From Psychrobacillus glaciei (GTDB lineage Bacteria > Bacillota > Bacilli > Bacillales_A > Planococcaceae), in assembly GCF_008973485.1 (NCBI RefSeq), contig NZ_CP031223.1, positions 930,001 through 994,000 of the forward strand: a stretch of 64,000 bases of DNA, read 5' to 3'. Under the pieces are notes generated by a model. The model made no database searches, was not told where the DNA came from, and worked only from the letters and a program-made list of their open reading frames with translations. Within the stretch, counting starts at the first letter, position 1. Each line of letters starts with the position of its first letter. The translations under genes and the position numbers were made by a program. Shown piece after piece: positions 1-11,250 of this stretch.

Positions 1-3000
1 TTAACACATATACCAATGAAAGAAGCTTACAGTGATACAAGTATTTCTTTTGAGGCATTTGCAGACGGGGCACAATCCGTTACGCTTTATTACCGAAATG
101 CTGGCGATAGCTCTTTCCTATCAATATCAATGAGCGATGATACACAAGGAAGATATACTGCTACACTTGCTTCAACTAATTTCACAAAAGATTCATTTGA
201 GTATTATATCGAAGCTTCTGCAGGAGATAAAGTTAGATCTGCTGGTACGAAAGAAGATCCTTATGTAGTTACTCTAGTTGCAGATAAAATTGGACCTACA
301 TTTGCGGCAGAAATCCCTGTAGATACAGGAAAAGTGGAAAGCCCACGCCCTGAAATTTCTGTTGTCATGGAAGATCCAAGTGGTGTAGATAGTGAATCTA
401 TTAAAATCTTAGTAGATAATCAAGACGTAACTAGTGATGCAACTGTCTCAAAGACACAAGTGAAATACTTACCAACTGCAGATTTAGCTTTAGGTAAACA
501 CACGGTGAAAGTTACAGCTGCTGATACAAAGGGCAACAAGAGCACAAAAGAATGGACGTTTGAAGTTGTACCTCGCTTCACTGGTGGAAATCATTACAGA
601 GGTACGACGCATAATCATACGAATATTTCACATGATGCTGCTGGCGGACCAGAAGATGCACTAAAAGCAGCGAAAAAATATAAATATGATTACTTTGCTT
701 TCTCTGATCATTCCCATGATATCGACCCAGAATTATTAGGGCAAGATACAGTGGATCATAAAGGCCAACCAGAGCGTACTGGTGGGGCTGATTGGAAACA
801 AACGAAAGATCTTGCAAAAAAATATACAAAAGACGGTGAATATGTCGTATTCCCTGCATTTGAAATGACTTCCACTACATGGGGACATTCAAACGTATTC
901 GGAACAGATAATTTTATAGACAGAAATATTAACGGTAAACAGTACCAAGATTTAAGCAAATACTATGCTTGGGTATTAACATATGACGATGTCGTTGCAC
1001 AATTTAATCACCCAGACATGTCAAAAGATTCGTTTAATAACTTCAAACCATATGATAAAAACTTAGACAAATTATTTACAATGATTGAAGTAGGAAACGG
1101 TTCTGGACATTATGGTTATGCAAATGCGGAAGGAAAATTCTTCTCTGCCCTTGACTTAGGTTGGCATGTGGCTCCAACTTATGGGGAAGATAACCATGAT
1201 GGTACTTGGGGGCAAACGAATGCACGTACAGTTATCGTTGCAGACGATTTATCTCAAGAATCATTGTTACATTCCATGGCGAATATGCGAGTGTATATGT
1301 CAGAGGATCCAAACTTTCAGTTAGATGTTTTAGCGAACGGCTATTACATGGGTTCAACTGTCGACAGTAAAAAGTTGAAATTCGACATAAAAGGTTCTGA
1401 TCCAGTAGCAGAATCTAAAGCAACTGGTTACGATTATTTATCGAATACGTACAAATCAGATGATAAAGTAGCAAAAGTAGAACTTCTAACAAATGGTGGA
1501 AAAGTTATTGATTCTTATGTACCAAATACAAAAGACTTCACTTGGACTCCAGAATACACAGTAGCAAGTGGACAACAATGGTTTGTTGTACGAGTTACAC
1601 AAGCTGATGGTGAGCGTGCTTACTCTGCACCAATTTGGTCAAAAGAAGAAACAGTTGATGTAAAAGTTAATGGCATAGATATTGTTGGGGACGTCGTGAT
1701 TGAAGGAAATCCAGCTACTGCTAAAGTAACAGTTGGAAACTTCGGTACACAGACAGTTAGCAATTTAAAAGTTGACCTTTATGTAGACGCAAAAGACGAT
1801 GCTCATAAATTAGGAACTGCAGTGATTAATTCGATTCTTGCAAAAGGAACAGGTGTCGCATCTATTAACTGGACAAAACCAGTTGAAGGGGACCATAACT
1901 TAATTGCAGTCGTTACTTCAAATGACGGAGCGAATCTGGGTGATGTTTCATTTACACTACCTATTAAAGTGAAAAAACCACTAGGTATTAAAGTGTTAAT
2001 TGATGCGAAACATGGAAACGAAAACTCCGGTGGCGACACAGGAACGTATAAAGATAACTTAAAAGCTTTCACACTTCTTCTACAAAAAGATGGGTATACA
2101 GTTGCTGAAAATAATGCAATTATCACAACTGACGTATTAAAAGATGTGAAAATTCTAGTAATGACACATCCTAGAACTGCTTTGACTGCTGACGAACAAA
2201 AAGCAGTTGGTGATTTTGTTAAAGCAGGCGGATCTGTATTATTTGCAGGAAAAAGTAATAACGGTTCCACAGACTCAACTCTGCATAATGCTACGTTGGA
2301 AGCAATTGGAACTACAATAAGAATGAGTCATGACGGCGTATTCGATGATAGTAAGACTGGTAACTTCTGGGGAGATCCTGCAGTAAGTCCATATGCAGTT
2401 CGTGCTCATCCAGGACTTGTAGATAACTATGTAACGGACCGCGTTCCTTTTATTGATTACTACAGTGGGTCAAGCTTACAAGCGGTCAATAACAGTGCAC
2501 TTACTGAAAGTGGAAAAGTGAAGATACTTGTACGAGGAAATGAAACAACGTACCAAGGAAATGTGAAAAATGGTAGCTACATTTACGATAACGTTTCTGA
2601 CAATAAAGGTGGTTCAGCAATTCCTTTAATGGCGTCTGATGAAATCGGTACTGGGCGTATTCTCGTTTCAGGAATGAATACATTTAATGACAAACAAATG
2701 GATGAATCCTTTGAGCCAAAAGGAAACCCGCAGTTCATTTTAAACGCAGTGAATTGGCTAGCTCATCGTGAAACGCAAGTAATAAATATTGCAGATGCAC
2801 GCAAACTTGCAGATGATACTCCAGTCGTAATCACAGGAAAAGTAACAACAGCAGCAGGAGTATTCTTCGATGCGTTCTATGTTCAAGATGAAACTGGTGG
2901 TATTATGGCCTTCAATGAAGTTCCTGAAGGATCATTGAAATTAGGCGATACAGTCCGTATTTATGGACATATTAAGACATTTGAAAATAACAAAGAAATT

Positions 3001-4878
3001 GAGTTCGGTAAATTTGATATCGATGTTATTAAGACAGGCAAAGGTGCTGGAGTTGCCCCGAAAGAGGTAACGACTGGAACAGCGACGTCAGCTGTGAATC
3101 AAGGTTTCCTTGTTAAAGTAAAAGGAAAAGTGACTTCGAAATATGATGACACTTCTTACGTTATCAATGATGGATCTGGCGATTTATTAGTCTTCACAGA
3201 TGGATACATTGAGAAACAAGGAATTCCTGTACCACAGTTAAAAGTGGGAGATACACTTGAAGCAGTAGGTCTAGCGGGTGAATTTACTGGCGGCTCACGT
3301 ATTCGTGTACGTGATACGAAAGAGTTGAAAGGGACGCCTGGCACGAATGTAGGCGAGCCAGTTGTTGTATTAGAAGTTGATAAAAAATCAATTGAAATGA
3401 CAAAAGGTGACACAGTTCAACTTCATGTTAAACAAATCACTACAACAAATGATGGAAAATCAACTGAAAAAGACGTATCAAATGAAGCAATATATACAGT
3501 AGAAAAAGTAAATGTCGCATCTGTTACAAAGGGATTAGTGACGGCAAAAGTAGAAGGAACAACTAACATTACCATTGCATTTGAACAAAAAGAGGTAGTT
3601 GTGAGTGTTACAGTGAAAAATCCTGGTGGTGGAAACCAAGGTGGTGGAAATCAGGGGAATGAAAATCAAGGTAATGGTTCAACACCACCATCAAAAGTAG
3701 AAGATATCAAAGTCGATAAAGACAGTGGAACATCTTTCCCACAAACGCCGATTAAGCGTACTACAGAACCTAATGGAACTGTAAAAGATGAAATTACTTT
3801 AACATCAGATAATGTTAAAGAAACAATTGAAAAGTTAAAAGAACAACATCAAGATACTGCAAGAATTGTCATTCCAGATAAGGAAGACAAAGTAAACGAG
3901 GTAAGTGTATCTGTTCCGAAAGAAGCAGTGGGTACACTAGCTAACGGAAAAGCAAATCTAGAAATCTTTACGGATAATGTGCATCTGTTTATTCCACAAA
4001 CTTCGATGCAAGATTTCGGAGCAGATCTATTATTCCGTGTAGTTGCTCTAAAAGAACAAGCACAGAAAAATGAGATTGAAGCACGAGCTAAAAAAGAAAC
4101 ATTAGTAAATCAAATAGTTGGGAATAAAAAGGTAAACGTGATAGGGCGTCCGATGGAAATCGAAACAAATATGCAAAATCGTTCGGTCGACTTAACATTA
4201 CCTCTTCCAACAAATGCAACGAAAGAACAAATAGATAACTTGGTTATTTTCATCGAGCATAGCGATGGGAAGAAAGAAGTTAAACAAGGAAAGTTAATAG
4301 CGTTTGACAAAGGGACACAAGGTATCCAATTTACTGTTAACAAATTCTCTACATTTACAGTCTTGTACATGGAGGGTGCAGCGAAGTATTTTGCACAAAA
4401 TTCATGCGGAGAGATTGCTAAAACTAGCTGTCTTCAAGTGAACAAAACAACTCCTGTGTATGTGCTGGAAAATAACCGCTTGAAAAAAGTTGGAGAAGCA
4501 GTAAAAGGACAAAATTTACCTGTTAAACAAACTATTTCTCCAATGCTTGGACTTGGTGGAGACATCTGGTTAGAACGAACAGCAGCAATTTCTTACGAAA
4601 CACCATCTAAAGAAATGATTGCTAAAAACCAATTACCAGCCAATAAACGTCCAAAGCAAATTTGGAAAGGCTTAGAGTTAACTCCAGGTCAAATTGGAAA
4701 AGTGACTATTCTACAAGACACAGTTATTTGGCAATCGATTGATAAAACAACGAAACTACCAAGAGTCTTGAAAAAAGGTGAGCAATATAGAGTGTATCGC
4801 TATGTTCCAGGTATGTACCAAGTTAGCGACAAACAATATATCGTACAAGATTCAAACGTAGTTCTCATCAAAAAATAA
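1..4878 (+). CDS. Secreted multidomain CehA/PHP-type metallohydrolase, N-terminus outside window
   Basis: The frame is open from base 1, so the start and any signal peptide lie upstream; the Met at 16 is internal. Numbering from that Met: Ig-like domains (about 1-185), then a PHP/CehA-type phosphoesterase domain with HNH near 199, FSDHSHD near 229, NHPD near 331 and GEDNHDGTW near 390, which supply the expected metal ligands. A CARDB-like domain follows (about 545-655), then a Rossmann or glutamine-amidotransferase-like domain (656-760), two OB folds (924-1105), a BIG2-like Ig domain (1116-1202), a Gly/Asn-rich linker, a roughly 220-residue domain shared with the protein at 17430, and the C-terminal domain shared with both other secreted proteins. 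Such proteins act at the cell surface or outside the cell, probably on phosphoesters or nucleotides; the substrate is unknown. Domain names rest on sequence recognition. Confidence 0.85.
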   Translation, partial: LTHIPMKEAYSDTSISFEAFADGAQSVTLYYRNAGDSSFLSISMSDDTQGRYTATLASTNFTKDSFEYYIEASAGDKVRSAGTKEDPYVVTLVADKIGPTFAAEIPVDTGKVESPRPEISVVMEDPSGVDSESIKILVDNQDVTSDATVSKTQVKYLPTADLALGKHTVKVTAADTKGNKSTKEWTFEVVPRFTGGNHYRGTTHNHTNISHDAAGGPEDALKAAKKYKYDYFAFSDHSHDIDPELLGQDTVDHKGQPERTGGADWKQTKDLAKKYTKDGEYVVFPAFEMTSTTWGHSNVFGTDNFIDRNINGKQYQDLSKYYAWVLTYDDVVAQFNHPDMSKDSFNNFKPYDKNLDKLFTMIEVGNGSGHYGYANAEGKFFSALDLGWHVAPTYGEDNHDGTWGQTNARTVIVADDLSQESLLHSMANMRVYMSEDPNFQLDVLANGYYMGSTVDSKKLKFDIKGSDPVAESKATGYDYLSNTYKSDDKVAKVELLTNGGKVIDSYVPNTKDFTWTPEYTVASGQQWFVVRVTQADGERAYSAPIWSKEETVDVKVNGIDIVGDVVIEGNPATAKVTVGNFGTQTVSNLKVDLYVDAKDDAHKLGTAVINSILAKGTGVASINWTKPVEGDHNLIAVVTSNDGANLGDVSFTLPIKVKKPLGIKVLIDAKHGNENSGGDTGTYKDNLKAFTLLLQKDGYTVAENNAIITTDVLKDVKILVMTHPRTALTADEQKAVGDFVKAGGSVLFAGKSNNGSTDSTLHNATLEAIGTTIRMSHDGVFDDSKTGNFWGDPAVSPYAVRAHPGLVDNYVTDRVPFIDYYSGSSLQAVNNSALTESGKVKILVRGNETTYQGNVKNGSYIYDNVSDNKGGSAIPLMASDEIGTGRILVSGMNTFNDKQMDESFEPKGNPQFILNAVNWLAHRETQVINIADARKLADDTPVVITGKVTTAAGVFFDAFYVQDETGGIMAFNEVPEGSLKLGDTVRIYGHIKTFENNKEIEFGKFDIDVIKTGKGAGVAPKEVTTGTATSAVNQGFLVKVKGKVTSKYDDTSYVINDGSGDLLVFTDGYIEKQGIPVPQLKVGDTLEAVGLAGEFTGGSRIRVRDTKELKGTPGTNVGEPVVVLEVDKKSIEMTKGDTVQLHVKQITTTNDGKSTEKDVSNEAIYTVEKVNVASVTKGLVTAKVEGTTNITIAFEQKEVVVSVTVKNPGGGNQGGGNQGNENQGNGSTPPSKVEDIKVDKDSGTSFPQTPIKRTTEPNGTVKDEITLTSDNVKETIEKLKEQHQDTARIVIPDKEDKVNEVSVSVPKEAVGTLANGKANLEIFTDNVHLFIPQTSMQDFGADLLFRVVALKEQAQKNEIEARAKKETLVNQIVGNKKVNVIGRPMEIETNMQNRSVDLTLPLPTNATKEQIDNLVIFIEHSDGKKEVKQGKLIAFDKGTQGIQFTVNKFSTFTVLYMEGAAKYFAQNSCGEIAKTSCLQVNKTTPVYVLENNRLKKVGEAVKGQNLPVKQTISPMLGLGGDIWLERTAAISYETPSKEMIAKNQLPANKRPKQIWKGLELTPGQIGKVTILQDTVIWQSIDKTTKLPRVLKKGEQYRVYRYVPGMYQVSDKQYIVQDSNVVLIKK
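3330..3345. repeat. Palindrome core inside coding sequence
   Basis: GGGACGCCTGGCACG lies inside the large secreted protein gene, exactly in the linker between the second OB fold and the BIG2-like domain, where it encodes KGTPGT. It resembles the GGTGCCTGGCACC intergenic repeats, and a close relative sits inside the S8 protease gene at 9411. It may be a decayed repeat absorbed into a tolerant linker, or chance. Confidence 0.4.
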
Positions 4879-5001: not shown

Positions 5002-6249
5002 TTAAACAAGTTCGTTGTTTTTTCGGTACTTTTCCAGAATAGGTAATGCATATTTATTTGCTAATTCCATTTCTCCTTTTTCCGTATAATAATCAAATAA
5101 TTTTATCTCATAAGCCTCCGCGGCAGTTCCATAACCCATATTTTTGAAAAGGGGGTAAACTATTGTTTCTAAATAGTTGAAATATTGATCTCTATAATTT
5201 TGAATCTTCAATATATGCAAATGAAAAAAGTGTTTTAGCATTGGCTCGTTTAATTTATTCGCTAGAGAAAAACCTTTTTTGGCTAAACGTAGCAGTTCCT
5301 TGTCAGATGCCACCCCTAGTTTTGTGGAGGCATTTAAATACCCCTCCAGAGACATTAAATATAGCGAATTAGTTGGCTTTCGTATTTCCAAGGATTGTCT
5401 ATAATACTCTAAAGCTCTGTCATAGGAGCCAGTGCGAAATTGATGGTAGGCATAATTATAAAGTAGCTTGGCTTTTTGCTCGGTTAACCCATAATTGTCC
5501 GCCATCTCAATTAATCTAGGGTAACCTGAATCTTTTGGGTCAAAATGTTCCTCTTGTTCAACTTGAATCAGCATTAACATCTCTGTTTCAATTATTCGAG
5601 TAAAACTGTGTGTTTTTGAAAAAAAAGTAAGTGCTTTATTAGCGTAATAATAGGTTAAAACACGAGAATCCATGCAATGATAGGCAACAGCTAAATGGTA
5701 ATAATATTCAGGATTGTTGTAATAGGTAATATCTATTAATTTTAAATATGAAATTGCTTTATAATGTTCCTGGTGATAATTGATGAAAAATTCTCCTTTA
5801 ATATGTAATAGCATGTTTTTATCGTACGGCGTAAGGTCTTGCCAACTATCCATTTCTTTGATGAGTGTCTCAGCAAGTGTACCTTCCTCAATTAATAAAT
5901 AATACCTGGTAAGTATTAATGTTTTAGATCGATAGAAATCAGGTATTTGCAAAAGAACAATACCCTCCAATTCCTCCTTTATTCTTTCAGCTTTTGAGTT
6001 TAGTTTTAGGATTATAGAATCATGCCATTCTTTTAATAGACATTCTATGCTCAAGTAGGTTTCAATCTCTGCCTGCATGTCTATACAAAGTCTCTTAGCT
6101 AATACCTTTATTGTATCCTTGGATACTTCTGTAATACCTCGCTCAATTTTACTTATATGCGTTTTAGAACAAATGCCTTTTCCTAAATCTGATTGGCTTA
6201 AGTGTTGTAGTTCTCGGTGAAATTTAATGATTTTTCCTTGAATAATAAT
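5002..6249 (-). CDS. HTH-TPR regulator, NprR-like (RRNPP-type), probable ATT start
   Basis: From an ATG at 6078 the frame gives only a 358-residue TPR-like helical protein. The same frame stays open upstream to a TAG at 6325-6327 and there encodes a clear XRE helix-turn-helix (GKIIKFHREL, LSQSDLGKG, KTHISKIERGI). The region from that stop to 6078 has no ATG, GTG or TTG. Three successive ATT codons at 6241-6249 stand 6-12 bases after AAGGAG (6256-6261), so an ATT start giving about 415 residues is the best model, close to the length of NprR. Family members bind DNA and are controlled by a secreted peptide bound in the TPR domain. No propeptide gene is visible downstream: a terminator lies 37 bases beyond the stop. 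The gene diverges from the S8 protease, its likely target. A disrupted start is the alternative. Confidence 0.75.
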   Translation of the reverse strand: MIIQGKIIKFHRELQHLSQSDLGKGICSKTHISKIERGITEVSKDTIKVLAKRLCIDMQAEIETYLSIECLLKEWHDSIILKLNSKAERIKEELEGIVLLQIPDFYRSKTLILTRYYLLIEEGTLAETLIKEMDSWQDLTPYDKNMLLHIKGEFFINYHQEHYKAISYLKLIDITYYNNPEYYYHLAVAYHCMDSRVLTYYYANKALTFFSKTHSFTRIIETEMLMLIQVEQEEHFDPKDSGYPRLIEMADNYGLTEQKAKLLYNYAYHQFRTGSYDRALEYYRQSLEIRKPTNSLYLMSLEGYLNASTKLGVASDKELLRLAKKGFSLANKLNEPMLKHFFHLHILKIQNYRDQYFNYLETIVYPLFKNMGYGTAAEAYEIKLFDYYTEKGEMELANKYALPILEKYRKNNELV

Positions 6250-6255
6250 AACCAG

Positions 6256-6261
6256 CTCCTT
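6256..6261 (-). promoter_or_regulatory. Ribosome binding site that points to an ATT start
   Basis: AAGGAG on the minus strand is followed by CTGGTT and then ATT ATT ATT. Spacing to the first ATT is 6 bases and to the second 9. It is the only good Shine-Dalgarno site ahead of the HTH-encoding part of the regulator gene. Confidence 0.6.
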
Positions 6262-6468
6262 GGCATTTTCCGCAATAGTATTCTCGTATTCTACATGACA
6301 AACGGTGACCCCAACTCTAAGCTTCTATTTGATTAACCGTTTAATAATTTCAACAAAAACCGTTTTTTTATTCATTTCTTTTCCAAATTTCTACTAGAGT
6401 GATTGGACATGTAATCTTGATAAAACCCCAATTGCCAGTGAAGAGTGAAAAAGCTACTCTAAGATTAT

Positions 6469-6493: not shown

Positions 6494-6699
6494 AATATTC
6501 GTTTTATTTATCTTTTATTTAAAAAGTAGTTAAACCAAATTTCAAGGAGGTGAAGTAAATTAAGTCAGTTCTATTTTTATATAAGTATCCTTAATAAAAT
6601 CGAAGTTTTTTACAACAAGGCTATCACTCAAAGACTGTGCCCAAATTAGCAATAATCATGTACTTATATTCATATTAAAATTGAATAGGAGAATAATTG

Positions 6700-9600
6700 A
6701 TGGGAAATTATAAATTTAAGAAGTTAATAGCCACATTGATGGCAACTGCAATGTTAACCTTTCCTACGCTTCAAGCTTTTGCAAACGATCCATTTTCGGA
6801 CAATCAAAAAGCATTCGATGTAATAGATACAAAATATATTAGCGAAAGTTCGAAGAATAGTTCAGGAAAACATGTTATTACGCTGATTACAGGCGATGTT
6901 GTAACCGTGACATATATTGAAGGTGGTAAGAGCGTTATTAGTGTCGAAGCTGCGGATTATGGTAGTGGTGGAACAAGTATTATGACGCTTGGCAAGGATA
7001 CGTATGTTATTCCTGATGAAGCGATGTCCTATATAGCTTCAGATTTTTTGGATAAAAATTTGTTTAATATCACAGCTCTCATTGCTGACGGTTACGATGA
7101 TGAGAACCAATCCACCTTACCGGTGATCGTACAGTATGCCCCAACAAATGCTCGTTTTGAGAAAGCTCTGCCTACTACTCTTGCAGGATCTGAACGGACA
7201 CATATTTTGGAAAGTATAGACGGAGTTGCAGTGTCTACAGATAAGGAACAGACTAGAGCATTCTGGGAAGATATTACGGAGAATGCAGCTGCAGATTCTC
7301 GAATGACTGGCGGTATTAAAAAAGTTTGGCTGGATGGTCGTGTCGAGGTAAACCTCGCAGAAAGTGTACCACAGGTTGGTGCACCAGAGGCATGGGAATC
7401 AGGTTTTGATGGAAAGGGAATAACGGTAGCTGTTCTTGATACCGGCATCGATCCAGAGCATCCCGATCTAGTTAATCAAATTGACGAAATCGAGAGTTTC
7501 GTTCCAGAAGAAGATGCACTCGACTATCATGGACATGGTACACATGTGGCATCCACAGTACTTGGAACAGGGGATGCTTTGGAAGGTCAATATAAAGGTG
7601 TGGCTCCAGGGGCACGCCTAATTGTAGGGAAAGTTCTTAGTTCGTCAGGATATGGTCAAGATTCCTGGGTAATCGATGGGATGGAGTGGGCTGCTCATAA
7701 TGCGAAGGTGGTTAATATGAGTTTAGGCGATCCACAGCCAAGTGATGGAACAGACCCTATGTCTCAGGCTGTAAATAATCTGAGTGAAGAGACCGGTGCT
7801 TTGTTTGTTATTGCTTCTGGCAACGCCGGTACTGAAGGCATAGGTTCACCAGGGGCTGCAGACGCGGCACTAACAGTAGGTTCTGTTGATAAGTCTGATA
7901 TGCTTTCTTGGTTTTCTACTAAGGGACCTCGTTTTATGGATGCAGGATTAAAGCCTGATCTTGTCGCTCCCGGCTCAGATATTATAGCTGCCCGTTCTCA
8001 ATATGCAAGTCAAGGCGATGGTTTATATCTTGGTCTTAGCGGTACTTCTATGGCTACTCCCCATGTAACAGGAGCAGCGGCTATTCTTTCACAACGCTAT
8101 CCAGATTGGACGGGAGATCAACTGAAAAGTGCCCTAATGAGTACGACGAAGATGCTTGATGATATTAAACCGTATGAGGGTGGGGCGGGTCGTCTGGATG
8201 TTGCAACTGCCGCATCCAGTACTATATATGCGAAAGGTTCCTTGGACTTCGGTTTTTTCAAATGGCCGCATGATGAGGAAGCTCTTGTTGAGAAGACGGT
8301 TTCATATACCAATGTAAGTGATCAACCTGTTACATTGGATCTCACAGCAACCTTTACAGATAAAACTGGTAACATGGTAGATGAAGACCTTTTACAGCTT
8401 TCTACTGATCAAGTTATCATACCTGCTAATGAAAGTGCTGAAGTTACAGTAACGGTTGACCCGAGCAAAGCTACTGAAGGAAGTCGTTATCAAGGACAAC
8501 TCACTGCCAAGGTGGAAGGTCAAATAGTTGCTCATACAGCAATGGTTATGGGCAAGGAAGAGGAGAGATTTTCTCTAACAATTAATGCAACCAATCGTGA
8601 AGGAGCTCCCGCATCAACTATGGTTTCTATAGTTGGCCCGAATAAAAACCCAGGATTCTTGAATGTGCAAGGGACAACGGAATTACGACTTCCAAAGGGA
8701 ACGTATTCAGTCATGACAATGATGGATGTTGATACAAACACGGATCACGCAGGAGTTGCCCTCCTAGGTGATCCTGAAGTTATTCTTGATGGTCCAAAAA
8801 TTGTCGAACTGGATGCACGGAATGCAAGAGAATTTACAGCGAACGTTCCAGAAAAGACTGAAGCGAAGTTCAGGAAACTGGAGTATTATCGCAGTTTTAG
8901 TGAAATAGATACTATAACCGCAACGTACTTACTACCAGAAACAATCGATAAAATGTATGCGGAGCCAACAGCAACCGTTAGTACTGGTGAATTTCAACTG
9001 AACACACGCTGGCGCCTGATCAAGCCGGTATTGTCCATTAACGTCAATGAACTGGAGCTAGATAGTCTAACTCTGCCAGGAAGTCAGCCGTTAGAAGGAA
9101 AACATCAGTTGGATGTCGTTTTTGCAAAACAAGGGACTCAAGAAGATTATAAAGGCCTTGATGTGAAAGATAAGGCAGTGATTGTGCAACGTAGTAATAT
9201 GATCAATGGCTCTGAACGCGCTGCGGCAGCGCATGCAGCAGGTGCAAAACTATTAGTTATAGTGAACGATAGACCAACAGAGTTTTTAGAATGGGTTGGA
9301 AAAGAGGACTCTTTGGATAGTATTCCTATTGCCGTGGCTTCTGTTAGCGAAACAGAAGGGATAGATCTTATCAAACTTGCAAAAGAAGGGCATTTAAAGA
9401 TAAACGTTGAGGGGACGCCTGACACCCCATACGTATATGATCTAATGGATAACCATCAAAATGCCATTCCGGAGGATTTGACTTATTCTCCTACAGCGAA
9501 TGAGCTAGTGAAAATCAATGCGCAATATTACTCGGATCGCTCGGCGCCAGGAGCAGAATTCCGCTGGGATATTCCATCGTACAGCGAAAATGGAGTGGGT

Positions 9601-11250
9601 TACCCTAATAAACTGTCACTCCCTTCTGTTCGCACCGAGTGGGTATCAGCTTCAGAAGTCACTATGTGGTACCATCAGGCGAGAGTGGATGACGAATGGG
9701 AAGTGCGGCAACCATTGATGTCTTATCAGCAGGGTCAACGTTTGGATGAGAAATGGTTTGCGCCAGTTGTACGCCCTCGCTTTGGTGAAGGTTTCTGGGT
9801 GCCTGTACGTTTCGAAAATGACCTAATTTTCAATGTTCCTTCCTTGGCCGATTCAGGTGATGGAAACACAGGGTGGGATATCTCCAGTACTGGAGAGCAA
9901 AAACTGAAACTTTATCAAGGGGCTAACTTAGTTGAAACGTCAAGTGATCAGATTATAATCTTGTGGGAAGCTCCGGAGGAAAAAACTGAATTTCGCTTGG
10001 TGAATGATGTAACTCGTGATCCGAACCGATGGAACACATCAGTTAGCACGCATACAGAATGGACGATTTGGACTGAAATGCAAGAAGAATTCGAATCATT
10101 TCTTCCGATGATTTCACTTGATTATAAAGTGGATACGGACATGAAGGGGAATGCAATCGCAGGCGATACGATTAAGCTAGGATTGAGTGCGTCACAGATA
10201 GACTATGCATCTGGAAATGGAAACATTGAAGGTGCTTCACTTGAAGTTTCGTTTGACGAAGGCAAGACGTGGGAAGAGGTACAGTTGATCCGAGAAGGGG
10301 ACGGTTGGACAGCCAACATTAGCAACGCTAGTAAGAGAGGGACCTTTGTCTCTCTTCGTGCGAGCGCATGGGATGATTTAGGGAATCGCATAGATCAAAC
10401 TGTTATAAAAGCTTTTGGTGTCTCGGAATCAGAAGTTACACTTTCTACAGACAAACTGGACTATTCTCTAACAAAAGGAACGACAAGCCAAATGAAAGTT
10501 AAAGCAGTAACAACTCCAAAACAAAGTAAAATGACAGAAGAAGATGTAACAAATAAAGCTACGTATGTAGTGGAAGATGATACCGTTGCATCTGTTACGA
10601 ACGGCTTAATAACAGCTAAAGCAAAAGGCTCAACGAAAGTTACAATTTCTTACGGTGGAAATGAAGTGACGGTAAATATAACAGTGACAGAACCTGCAGT
10701 AGATCCAGGTCCTGGTGGCGGTGGAGGATATACACCACCAACATCAACGCCAACACCACCAGTTCAACCGAATTTATGCGACGAGAATGCTAAATCTGGC
10801 TGTCTTCAAGTGAACAAAGCAACACCTATGTATATTTTAGAAAATAATCGCTTGAAAAAAGTCGGAGAAGCAGTAAAAGGAAAAAGTTTACCTGTTAAAC
10901 AAACCATTTCTCCAATGCTTGGACTTGGTGGAGACATCTGGTTAGAAAGAACAGAAGCAATTTCTTACGAAACACCATCTAAAGAAATGATTGCTAAAAA
11001 CCAATTACCGGCGAACAAACGTCCAAAACAAATGTGGAAAGGCCTAGAGCTAAATCCAGGTCAAATCGGTAAAGTTACTATCATAAAAGACACAGTCATT
11101 TGGCAATCGATTGATAAAACAACGAAACTACCAAGAGTCTTGAAAAAAGGTGAACAATATAGAGTGTATCGCTATGTTCCGGGCATGTATCAAATTAGTG
11201 ATCTAGAATATATCGTACAAGATTCAAACGTAGTACTCATCAAAAAATAA
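6700..11250 (+). CDS. Secreted S8 (subtilisin-like) serine protease with Ig and SH3-like C-terminal domains
   Basis: ATG 6700 is chosen over the TTG at 6697 because AGGAG (6687-6691) is 8 bases away. A signal peptide ends near AFA at residue 28, followed by a propeptide. The S8 catalytic triad is visible: Asp247 in VLDTGID, His277 in HGHGTH and Ser450 in GTSMATPH, with the oxyanion region SGNAG near 374. Then come an Fn3-like region, a PA-like domain (about 814-900), a BIG2-like domain (about 1244-1331), a Gly/Pro/Thr linker, and the Cys-containing C-terminal domain shared with the proteins at 1 and 17430. About 1516 residues is far longer than plain subtilisins and fits large cell-wall-associated proteases. 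It probably degrades protein outside the cell, with the C-terminal domain holding it at the wall (inference). It is divergent from the NprR-like regulator, a natural candidate to control it. Confidence 0.9.
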   Translation: MGNYKFKKLIATLMATAMLTFPTLQAFANDPFSDNQKAFDVIDTKYISESSKNSSGKHVITLITGDVVTVTYIEGGKSVISVEAADYGSGGTSIMTLGKDTYVIPDEAMSYIASDFLDKNLFNITALIADGYDDENQSTLPVIVQYAPTNARFEKALPTTLAGSERTHILESIDGVAVSTDKEQTRAFWEDITENAAADSRMTGGIKKVWLDGRVEVNLAESVPQVGAPEAWESGFDGKGITVAVLDTGIDPEHPDLVNQIDEIESFVPEEDALDYHGHGTHVASTVLGTGDALEGQYKGVAPGARLIVGKVLSSSGYGQDSWVIDGMEWAAHNAKVVNMSLGDPQPSDGTDPMSQAVNNLSEETGALFVIASGNAGTEGIGSPGAADAALTVGSVDKSDMLSWFSTKGPRFMDAGLKPDLVAPGSDIIAARSQYASQGDGLYLGLSGTSMATPHVTGAAAILSQRYPDWTGDQLKSALMSTTKMLDDIKPYEGGAGRLDVATAASSTIYAKGSLDFGFFKWPHDEEALVEKTVSYTNVSDQPVTLDLTATFTDKTGNMVDEDLLQLSTDQVIIPANESAEVTVTVDPSKATEGSRYQGQLTAKVEGQIVAHTAMVMGKEEERFSLTINATNREGAPASTMVSIVGPNKNPGFLNVQGTTELRLPKGTYSVMTMMDVDTNTDHAGVALLGDPEVILDGPKIVELDARNAREFTANVPEKTEAKFRKLEYYRSFSEIDTITATYLLPETIDKMYAEPTATVSTGEFQLNTRWRLIKPVLSINVNELELDSLTLPGSQPLEGKHQLDVVFAKQGTQEDYKGLDVKDKAVIVQRSNMINGSERAAAAHAAGAKLLVIVNDRPTEFLEWVGKEDSLDSIPIAVASVSETEGIDLIKLAKEGHLKINVEGTPDTPYVYDLMDNHQNAIPEDLTYSPTANELVKINAQYYSDRSAPGAEFRWDIPSYSENGVGYPNKLSLPSVRTEWVSASEVTMWYHQARVDDEWEVRQPLMSYQQGQRLDEKWFAPVVRPRFGEGFWVPVRFENDLIFNVPSLADSGDGNTGWDISSTGEQKLKLYQGANLVETSSDQIIILWEAPEEKTEFRLVNDVTRDPNRWNTSVSTHTEWTIWTEMQEEFESFLPMISLDYKVDTDMKGNAIAGDTIKLGLSASQIDYASGNGNIEGASLEVSFDEGKTWEEVQLIREGDGWTANISNASKRGTFVSLRASAWDDLGNRIDQTVIKAFGVSESEVTLSTDKLDYSLTKGTTSQMKVKAVTTPKQSKMTEEDVTNKATYVVEDDTVASVTNGLITAKAKGSTKVTISYGGNEVTVNITVTEPAVDPGPGGGGGYTPPTSTPTPPVQPNLCDENAKSGCLQVNKATPMYILENNRLKKVGEAVKGKSLPVKQTISPMLGLGGDIWLERTEAISYETPSKEMIAKNQLPANKRPKQMWKGLELNPGQIGKVTIIKDTVIWQSIDKTTKLPRVLKKGEQYRVYRYVPGMYQISDLEYIVQDSNVVLIKK
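9411..9428. repeat. Palindrome core inside the S8 protease gene
   Basis: GGGGACGCCTGACACCCC lies at the end of the PA-like domain, encoding GTPDTP. It matches the variant found at 3330 (GGGACGCCTG plus GCAC or ACAC) and resembles the intergenic repeat core. It occupies a domain boundary. Confidence 0.4.

Follow-up and report, generated by a model that had tools for sequence, protein, structure and literature searches.

NprR of the Bacillus cereus group combines a helix-turn-helix (HTH) domain with TPR repeats, and its gene is accompanied by those of NprX and of an extracellular protease, the neutral metalloprotease NprA. Rap proteins are derived from NprR-like ancestors (PMC9765709). Receptors of the RRNPPA type without a pheromone gene, known as "eavesdroppers," have also been described, and a pheromone gene is thus not strictly defining for these regulators (PMC9765709). 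Some regulators have rare start codons that limit their dose: the GTC start of Streptomyces sigR does so through IF3 (PMC5472188), and in S. aureus the AUU and AUA starts of cvfC1 and ccpN give approximately 10% of the AUG level, helped by extended Shine-Dalgarno (SD) sequences such as the known conserved non-AUG starts carry (PMC13009471).

Here we analyzed an NprR-like regulator gene of Psychrobacillus glaciei in a 64,000-nt stretch of DNA, hereafter the window. Its HTH domain may be translated from an ATT codon that no relative shares, and it lies beside a gene for a secreted subtilisin-like (S8) protease that it probably controls. The features are collected in Table 1.

Table 1. Features of the regulator-protease locus (positions within the window).
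Feature	Position	Strand	Basis or remark
NprR-like RRNPP regulator gene, 414 codons + stop	5002..6246	-	HTH_3 and TPR, orthologues, predicted fold
Putative start codon ATT	6244..6246	-	Aligned to relatives' ATG/GTG/TTG; 9 nt after AAGGAG
Neighboring alternative start, ATT	6247..6249	-	Also possible
Shine-Dalgarno sequence AAGGAG	6256..6261	-	Sequence; AAGGAGG counterpart in nearest orthologue
HTH domain and first linker segment	6076..6246	-	Made only with a start upstream of ATG 6078
Candidate operator box 1, GTGACCCCAACTC, regulator 5′ leader region	6306..6318	+	Paired boxes, 117 bp from box 2
Candidate operator box 2, AAAACCCCAATT, protease-proximal	6422..6433	+	Conserved paired arrangement upstream of the clade's S8 genes
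Gene of secreted S8 (subtilisin-like) protease with PA domain, likely target	6697..11250	+	Peptidase_S8 2.3e-62, PA

Results

The Regulator Is NprR-Like and Its HTH Lies Upstream of the First Conventional Start Codon

The open frame of the regulator gene comprises 440 codons on the minus strand, between a TAG at 6327-6325 and a stop ending at 5002. Scanning its codons, we found no in-frame ATG, GTG, or TTG before the ATG at 6078-6076, and the N-terminal part of the product nevertheless contains a complete XRE HTH (Pfam HTH_3, 1.6e-8, above the curated cut-off), confirming what an earlier note on this DNA had claimed. HTH_3 was present in 10/10 family members scanned, while the TPR matches of the product were weak. 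NprR (4gpk) was matched with an E-value of 2.6e-13 by phmmer and of 7.8e-25 by a profile of ten orthologues. An AlphaFold model built on a 42-sequence alignment (mean pLDDT 91.6, pTM 0.83) shows, in its C-terminal part, a TPR superhelix like those of NprR and Rap. Its best PDB fold match was NprR of B. thuringiensis (5dbk, E 3e-9, TM 0.76 by target), followed by Rap proteins, with Rap-Phi3T the second-best PDB match and PlcR far lower. Profile and predicted fold thus support the assignment, made in the earlier note, of the product as an NprR-like RRNPP transcription regulator with HTH and TPR parts; judged from sequence, a 440-codon frame encoding a recognizable member of this family is far beyond chance. 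A phage or viral origin was considered and rejected, since neither the phage collection nor the viral contigs gave a match.

Three ATT codons, beginning at 6249, 6246, and 6243, do follow the AAGGAG at a suitable distance, as had been noted, with gaps of 6, 9, and 12 nt; a distance of 6 or 9 nt is a proper one for an ATT start. The N-termini of the orthologues read M-x-(E/Q)-G-K-I-I-K-F and that of the window frame I-I-Q-G-K-I-I-K-F, and the alignment therefore places the homologous start at ATT 6246-6244. The resulting length of 414 aa is exactly that of the two nearest orthologues (L088 and L090) and agrees with the figure of about 415, as in NprR, given in the earlier note. Its argument that the HTH-containing form needs a start other than ATG, GTG, or TTG is likewise supported, the most likely codon being ATT 6246. 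The SD sequence of the nearest orthologue is AAGGAGG, 5 nt ahead of the ATG, and the distance from SD to start is one codon longer in the window than in L088. With -10.2 kcal/mol, the predicted SD duplex is weaker here than those of five relatives, which range from -11.4 to -14.9 kcal/mol. An upstream start in another frame combined with a frameshift was also considered. The out-of-frame ATG concerned (ATG CCA AGG AGC) overlaps the SD region, opens only a short frame, and is absent at that place in the nearest orthologue, and this reading was rejected.

The ATT Is Confined to the Window Lineage

Loci of relatives were found by a profile search of genome contigs; a contig scan with the single protein gave none. 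Orthologues were identified in Paenisporosarcina sp. OV554 (L088, 76% identity over the whole length), Peribacillus alkalitolerans (L089, 71%), and Sporosarcina highlanderae (L090, 68%), and further ones in Gottfriedia, Fictibacillus, Rossellomorea, and others. The codon homologous to ATT 6246 is ATG in 73 of the 80 relatives, TTG in three, and GTG in one, the other three having an ATG at most two codons from that position; none of the 80 has ATT. The same picture emerged from approximately 40 loci, overlapping in part, that whole-genome searches had yielded. The window gene groups with L088 and L090 in a 28-protein tree and is nested among genes that start with ATG, and the ATT is therefore most simply explained by a single change from ATG on the window lineage, or by an error at that base. 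The earlier note had taken the ATT for a device for low, regulated translation and had proposed comparing the start region in relatives; the ATG and TTG codons found there are the outcome that it had itself named as speaking against this reading, and together with GTG they do not bear it out as an established or conserved device, and, with ATT in no relative, nothing shows selection keeping it. The other 18 genomes of the genus gave no orthologue at the threshold searched, and for this reason we regard the gene as accessory.

The infC gene of this genome starts with ATT (ATT AGC AAA GAC) behind GGAGGTG, and this start is kept in 19/19 genomes of the genus, which indicates that ribosomes of the genus presumably use ATT. 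infC, which the earlier note had named, is a true ATT-start gene; the regulator's ATT, by contrast, recurs in none of the 80 relatives. A CcpN-like gene was considered as a second non-AUG case in this genome and rejected, as it has an in-frame GTG.

The Regulator Gene Has Been Under Constraint

Comparison of the window gene with L088 gave a dN of 0.136 and a dS of 0.793, with the HTH and TPR parts constrained alike; over region 2-62, which carries the HTH, the gene product shares 80% identity with the nearest orthologue (dN 0.11, dS 0.56). The changes polarized to the window branch comprise 61 nonsynonymous and 46 synonymous ones (61/107, against a neutral expectation of 76% nonsynonymous; p = 1e-5), which indicates constraint along most of the branch. 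Compared with its sister L088, the window gene has evolved slightly faster (Tajima test with four outgroups, p 0.03-0.06), and conserved sites changed at 13/190 in the window and 5/182 in L088 (p 0.09). In the sequence data, this acceleration fits mild relaxation and leaves room for a recent one. Two of the 80 relatives (L116 and L159) have nonsense codons in the regulator gene, and the regulator can therefore be lost. The in-frame stops of these two copies, from Ornithinibacillus gellani and a Sporosarcina MAG, occur approximately 65-75 codons in, between HTH and TPR. In Sutcliffiella and a related Bacillus (L118, L122, L124, and L125), a second regulator gene, about 32% identical, lies directly upstream in tandem.

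An S8 Protease Gene Accompanies the Regulator

The S8 protease gene is divergent from the regulator gene and encodes 1517 aa from a TTG at 6697, with an ATG next at 6700; the orthologous pair in Paenisporosarcina sp. OV554 (L088/L031) is divergent as well. In 64 of the relatives' 80 regulator loci, which are not independent of one another, an S8 gene lies within 6 kb of the regulator in divergent, convergent, or in-line orientation, whereas the chance expectation is about 2%, calculated from six S8 genes in 4.35 Mb with this genome only as the yardstick. The regulator probably controls the neighboring secreted S8 protease.

All six S8 genes of the genome are located in two clusters (G000:C1 911008-938160 and 793223-800728), each near an RRNPP-like regulator, either the one described here or a paralogue at 801252-802490. 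The secreted proteins encoded at 16-4878 and 6697-11250 of the window are nearly identical over their C-terminal 155 residues (139 identical; 422/465 at the DNA level), an unnamed domain for which the sequences suggest that a duplication or a gene conversion took place recently. The S8 orthologue of Paenisporosarcina sp. OV554 (L031 5892-9684) is split into two overlapping frames and looks frameshifted, while the regulator is intact.

We found no conserved small ORF resembling an nprX-like pro-peptide gene within 900 bp of the regulator in the window and 45 relatives. None of the small ORFs on either side of the regulator in the 46 loci had the form of a conserved pro-peptide, and those that recurred were rejected as pheromone genes, being antisense to the HTH start or to neighboring coding sequence, or limited to close relatives.

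Paired CCCC Boxes Are Associated With the Protease Genes

Two CCCC boxes are common to five divergent intergenic regions, and where the protease gene is elsewhere (L090, L036, L119, and L126) it is this gene, rather than the regulator, that has the boxes upstream. Boxes of the form AAAACCCC (AAACCCC-like) were present in sense orientation within 450 bp upstream of 57 of the 68 S8 genes near these regulators, compared with 9 for the reverse orientation and an average of 3.8 for mononucleotide shuffles. The motif was derived by inspecting these sequences, the data on which it was then tested overlap with them, and the counts are weighted by related genera. Spacing between the boxes is 105-121 bp in 31 pairings, 110 bp being the commonest, and the consensus of the paired boxes is AACCCCAAnT for the upstream and AAAACCCCnATnGC for the downstream one. 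Genome-wide, the box AAAACCCCNATT occurs seven times (control pattern, 3) and the pair three times (control, 1), one of which is the window site. No such box was present in the stretches covering the regions upstream of three other S8 genes of the genome and of the S8 gene beside the paralogue.

The regular spacing, close to ten helical turns, suggests from sequence that two oligomers may be bound at the paired boxes, perhaps with looping, and we infer that the regulator would be the protein linked to them. We found no description of an NprR box or of RRNPP-S8 linkage in the open-access literature, and the paired AAAACCCC boxes may be considered a candidate operator for which that literature gave no description.

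Discussion

We consider low-level initiation at ATT 6246 or 6249, resulting from a lineage-specific change, to be the most likely present state of this gene, with a probability of about 0.55. According to this interpretation, the ATG start of an NprR-like regulator dedicated to the divergent S8 gene would have changed to ATT on this lineage. The AAGGAG would still place the ribosome, the initiator tRNA would start inefficiently at ATT 6246 (or 6249), and the full 414-aa regulator would be made in small amounts. It would then bind the paired AAAACCCC boxes in the region separating the regulator gene from that of the protease and may switch the protease, in one direction or the other, in response to a presumed imported peptide. 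In favor of use of the ATT are its alignment with the orthologues' ATG, the retained SD sequence, the intact frame, operator pair, and protease gene, the constraint seen on the coding sequence, the ATT start of infC in this genus, and the expression measured from AUU and AUA starts in S. aureus. Against it stand the lack of ATT among the relatives, the faster branch, the weaker SD, and the nonsense codons in two relatives. In this genome the switch protein would either be produced at a low level or be losing its function.

The second of these states leads to the strongest alternative, a recent loss-of-function allele in which initiation at the ATT is too weak to be of consequence and the gene, though outwardly intact, has recently become a pseudogene. 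The uniqueness of the ATT to this genome, the slight acceleration of the window branch, the broken copies in two relatives, and the accessory nature of the gene in the genus are all in line with such a loss, which we regard as a real but lesser possibility. It is opposed by 414 codons without a stop or frameshift, by an HTH no more eroded than the rest, by the retained SD and operator boxes, and by the intact protease gene, although a sufficiently recent loss would leave no such traces. Alternatively, the real codon may be ATG and the ATT a sequencing or assembly error, which would require one base within a run of ATT triplets, every relative having a normal start. Single-base substitution errors should be rare in an assembly of this kind, which has 2 contigs and is 100% complete, and neither the regulator gene nor either of the two large ORFs beside it (1620 and 1517 aa) is interrupted; we therefore deem an error unlikely.

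Considerably less probable still is an AUU start that has evolved to be sensitive to IF3 and fixes the regulator's dose in the manner of infC or of the sigR GTC. One might expect such a start from the ATT of infC in the same genome and from the dose-limiting rare starts of sigR (PMC5472188) and of S. aureus cvfC1 and ccpN (PMC13009471); however, the ATT is conserved in no relative, the SD is weaker than theirs, and the CcpN-like gene, the candidate second case, has GTG. For the same composite of ideas in its fullest form, in which a pheromone-less NprR-like branch would be a dedicated S8 switch acting through a paired AAAACCCC looping operator and would in addition have adopted an IF3-sensitive, dose-setting AUU start, we see very little chance. 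Production of the short form from ATG 6078 alone, which would give a TPR protein with the HTH-less architecture of Rap proteins, is hardly credible, since no good SD was found ahead of this ATG, its Met belongs to an IDM linker motif common to the nearest relatives, and HTH and TPR parts are equally constrained; as read from the sequence, this ATG is without support as a start.

Regarded as a start codon, the ATT is a natural ATG-to-ATT change in a single genome, which makes it useful for testing what a regulator can tolerate. It is also a reminder that gene callers will annotate a protein lacking the HTH at this locus. On its own the ATT is a modest curiosity, and the arrangement of regulator, protease, and paired boxes may matter more. 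NprR-like receptors of this clade occur beside S8 proteases across numerous genera of the families Bacillaceae, Caryophanaceae, and Fictibacillaceae, and the clade, with no visible pheromone gene and with paired CCCC boxes ahead of the protease gene, provides a testable set of receptor, operator, and target in RRNPP regulation.

Among known non-ATG starts, that of infC (IF3) is similar in being an ATT behind an SD sequence, present in the same genome, but it is invariant in the genus and autoregulatory, whereas that of the regulator occurs in a single genome. Streptomyces sigR (GTC) and the S. aureus genes cvfC1 (AUU) and ccpN (AUA) encode regulators or putative regulators and have non-canonical starts at which initiation is reduced (PMC13009471; PMC5472188); those starts are conserved and tested, while the window ATT is known from sequence and is not conserved. 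Rap phosphatases share the TPR fold (Rap-Phi3T) and lack an HTH, which the window gene encodes and conserves. The closest described system is NprR, which resembles the window regulator in its HTH and TPR parts and similar length, and is its best PDB match in both sequence and fold, although identity in the fold alignment is about 20%. The window regulator differs in its ATT start and in having no adjacent nprX-like gene. Both regulator genes adjoin that of an extracellular protease, a neutral metalloprotease in the case of NprR and an S8 subtilase here.
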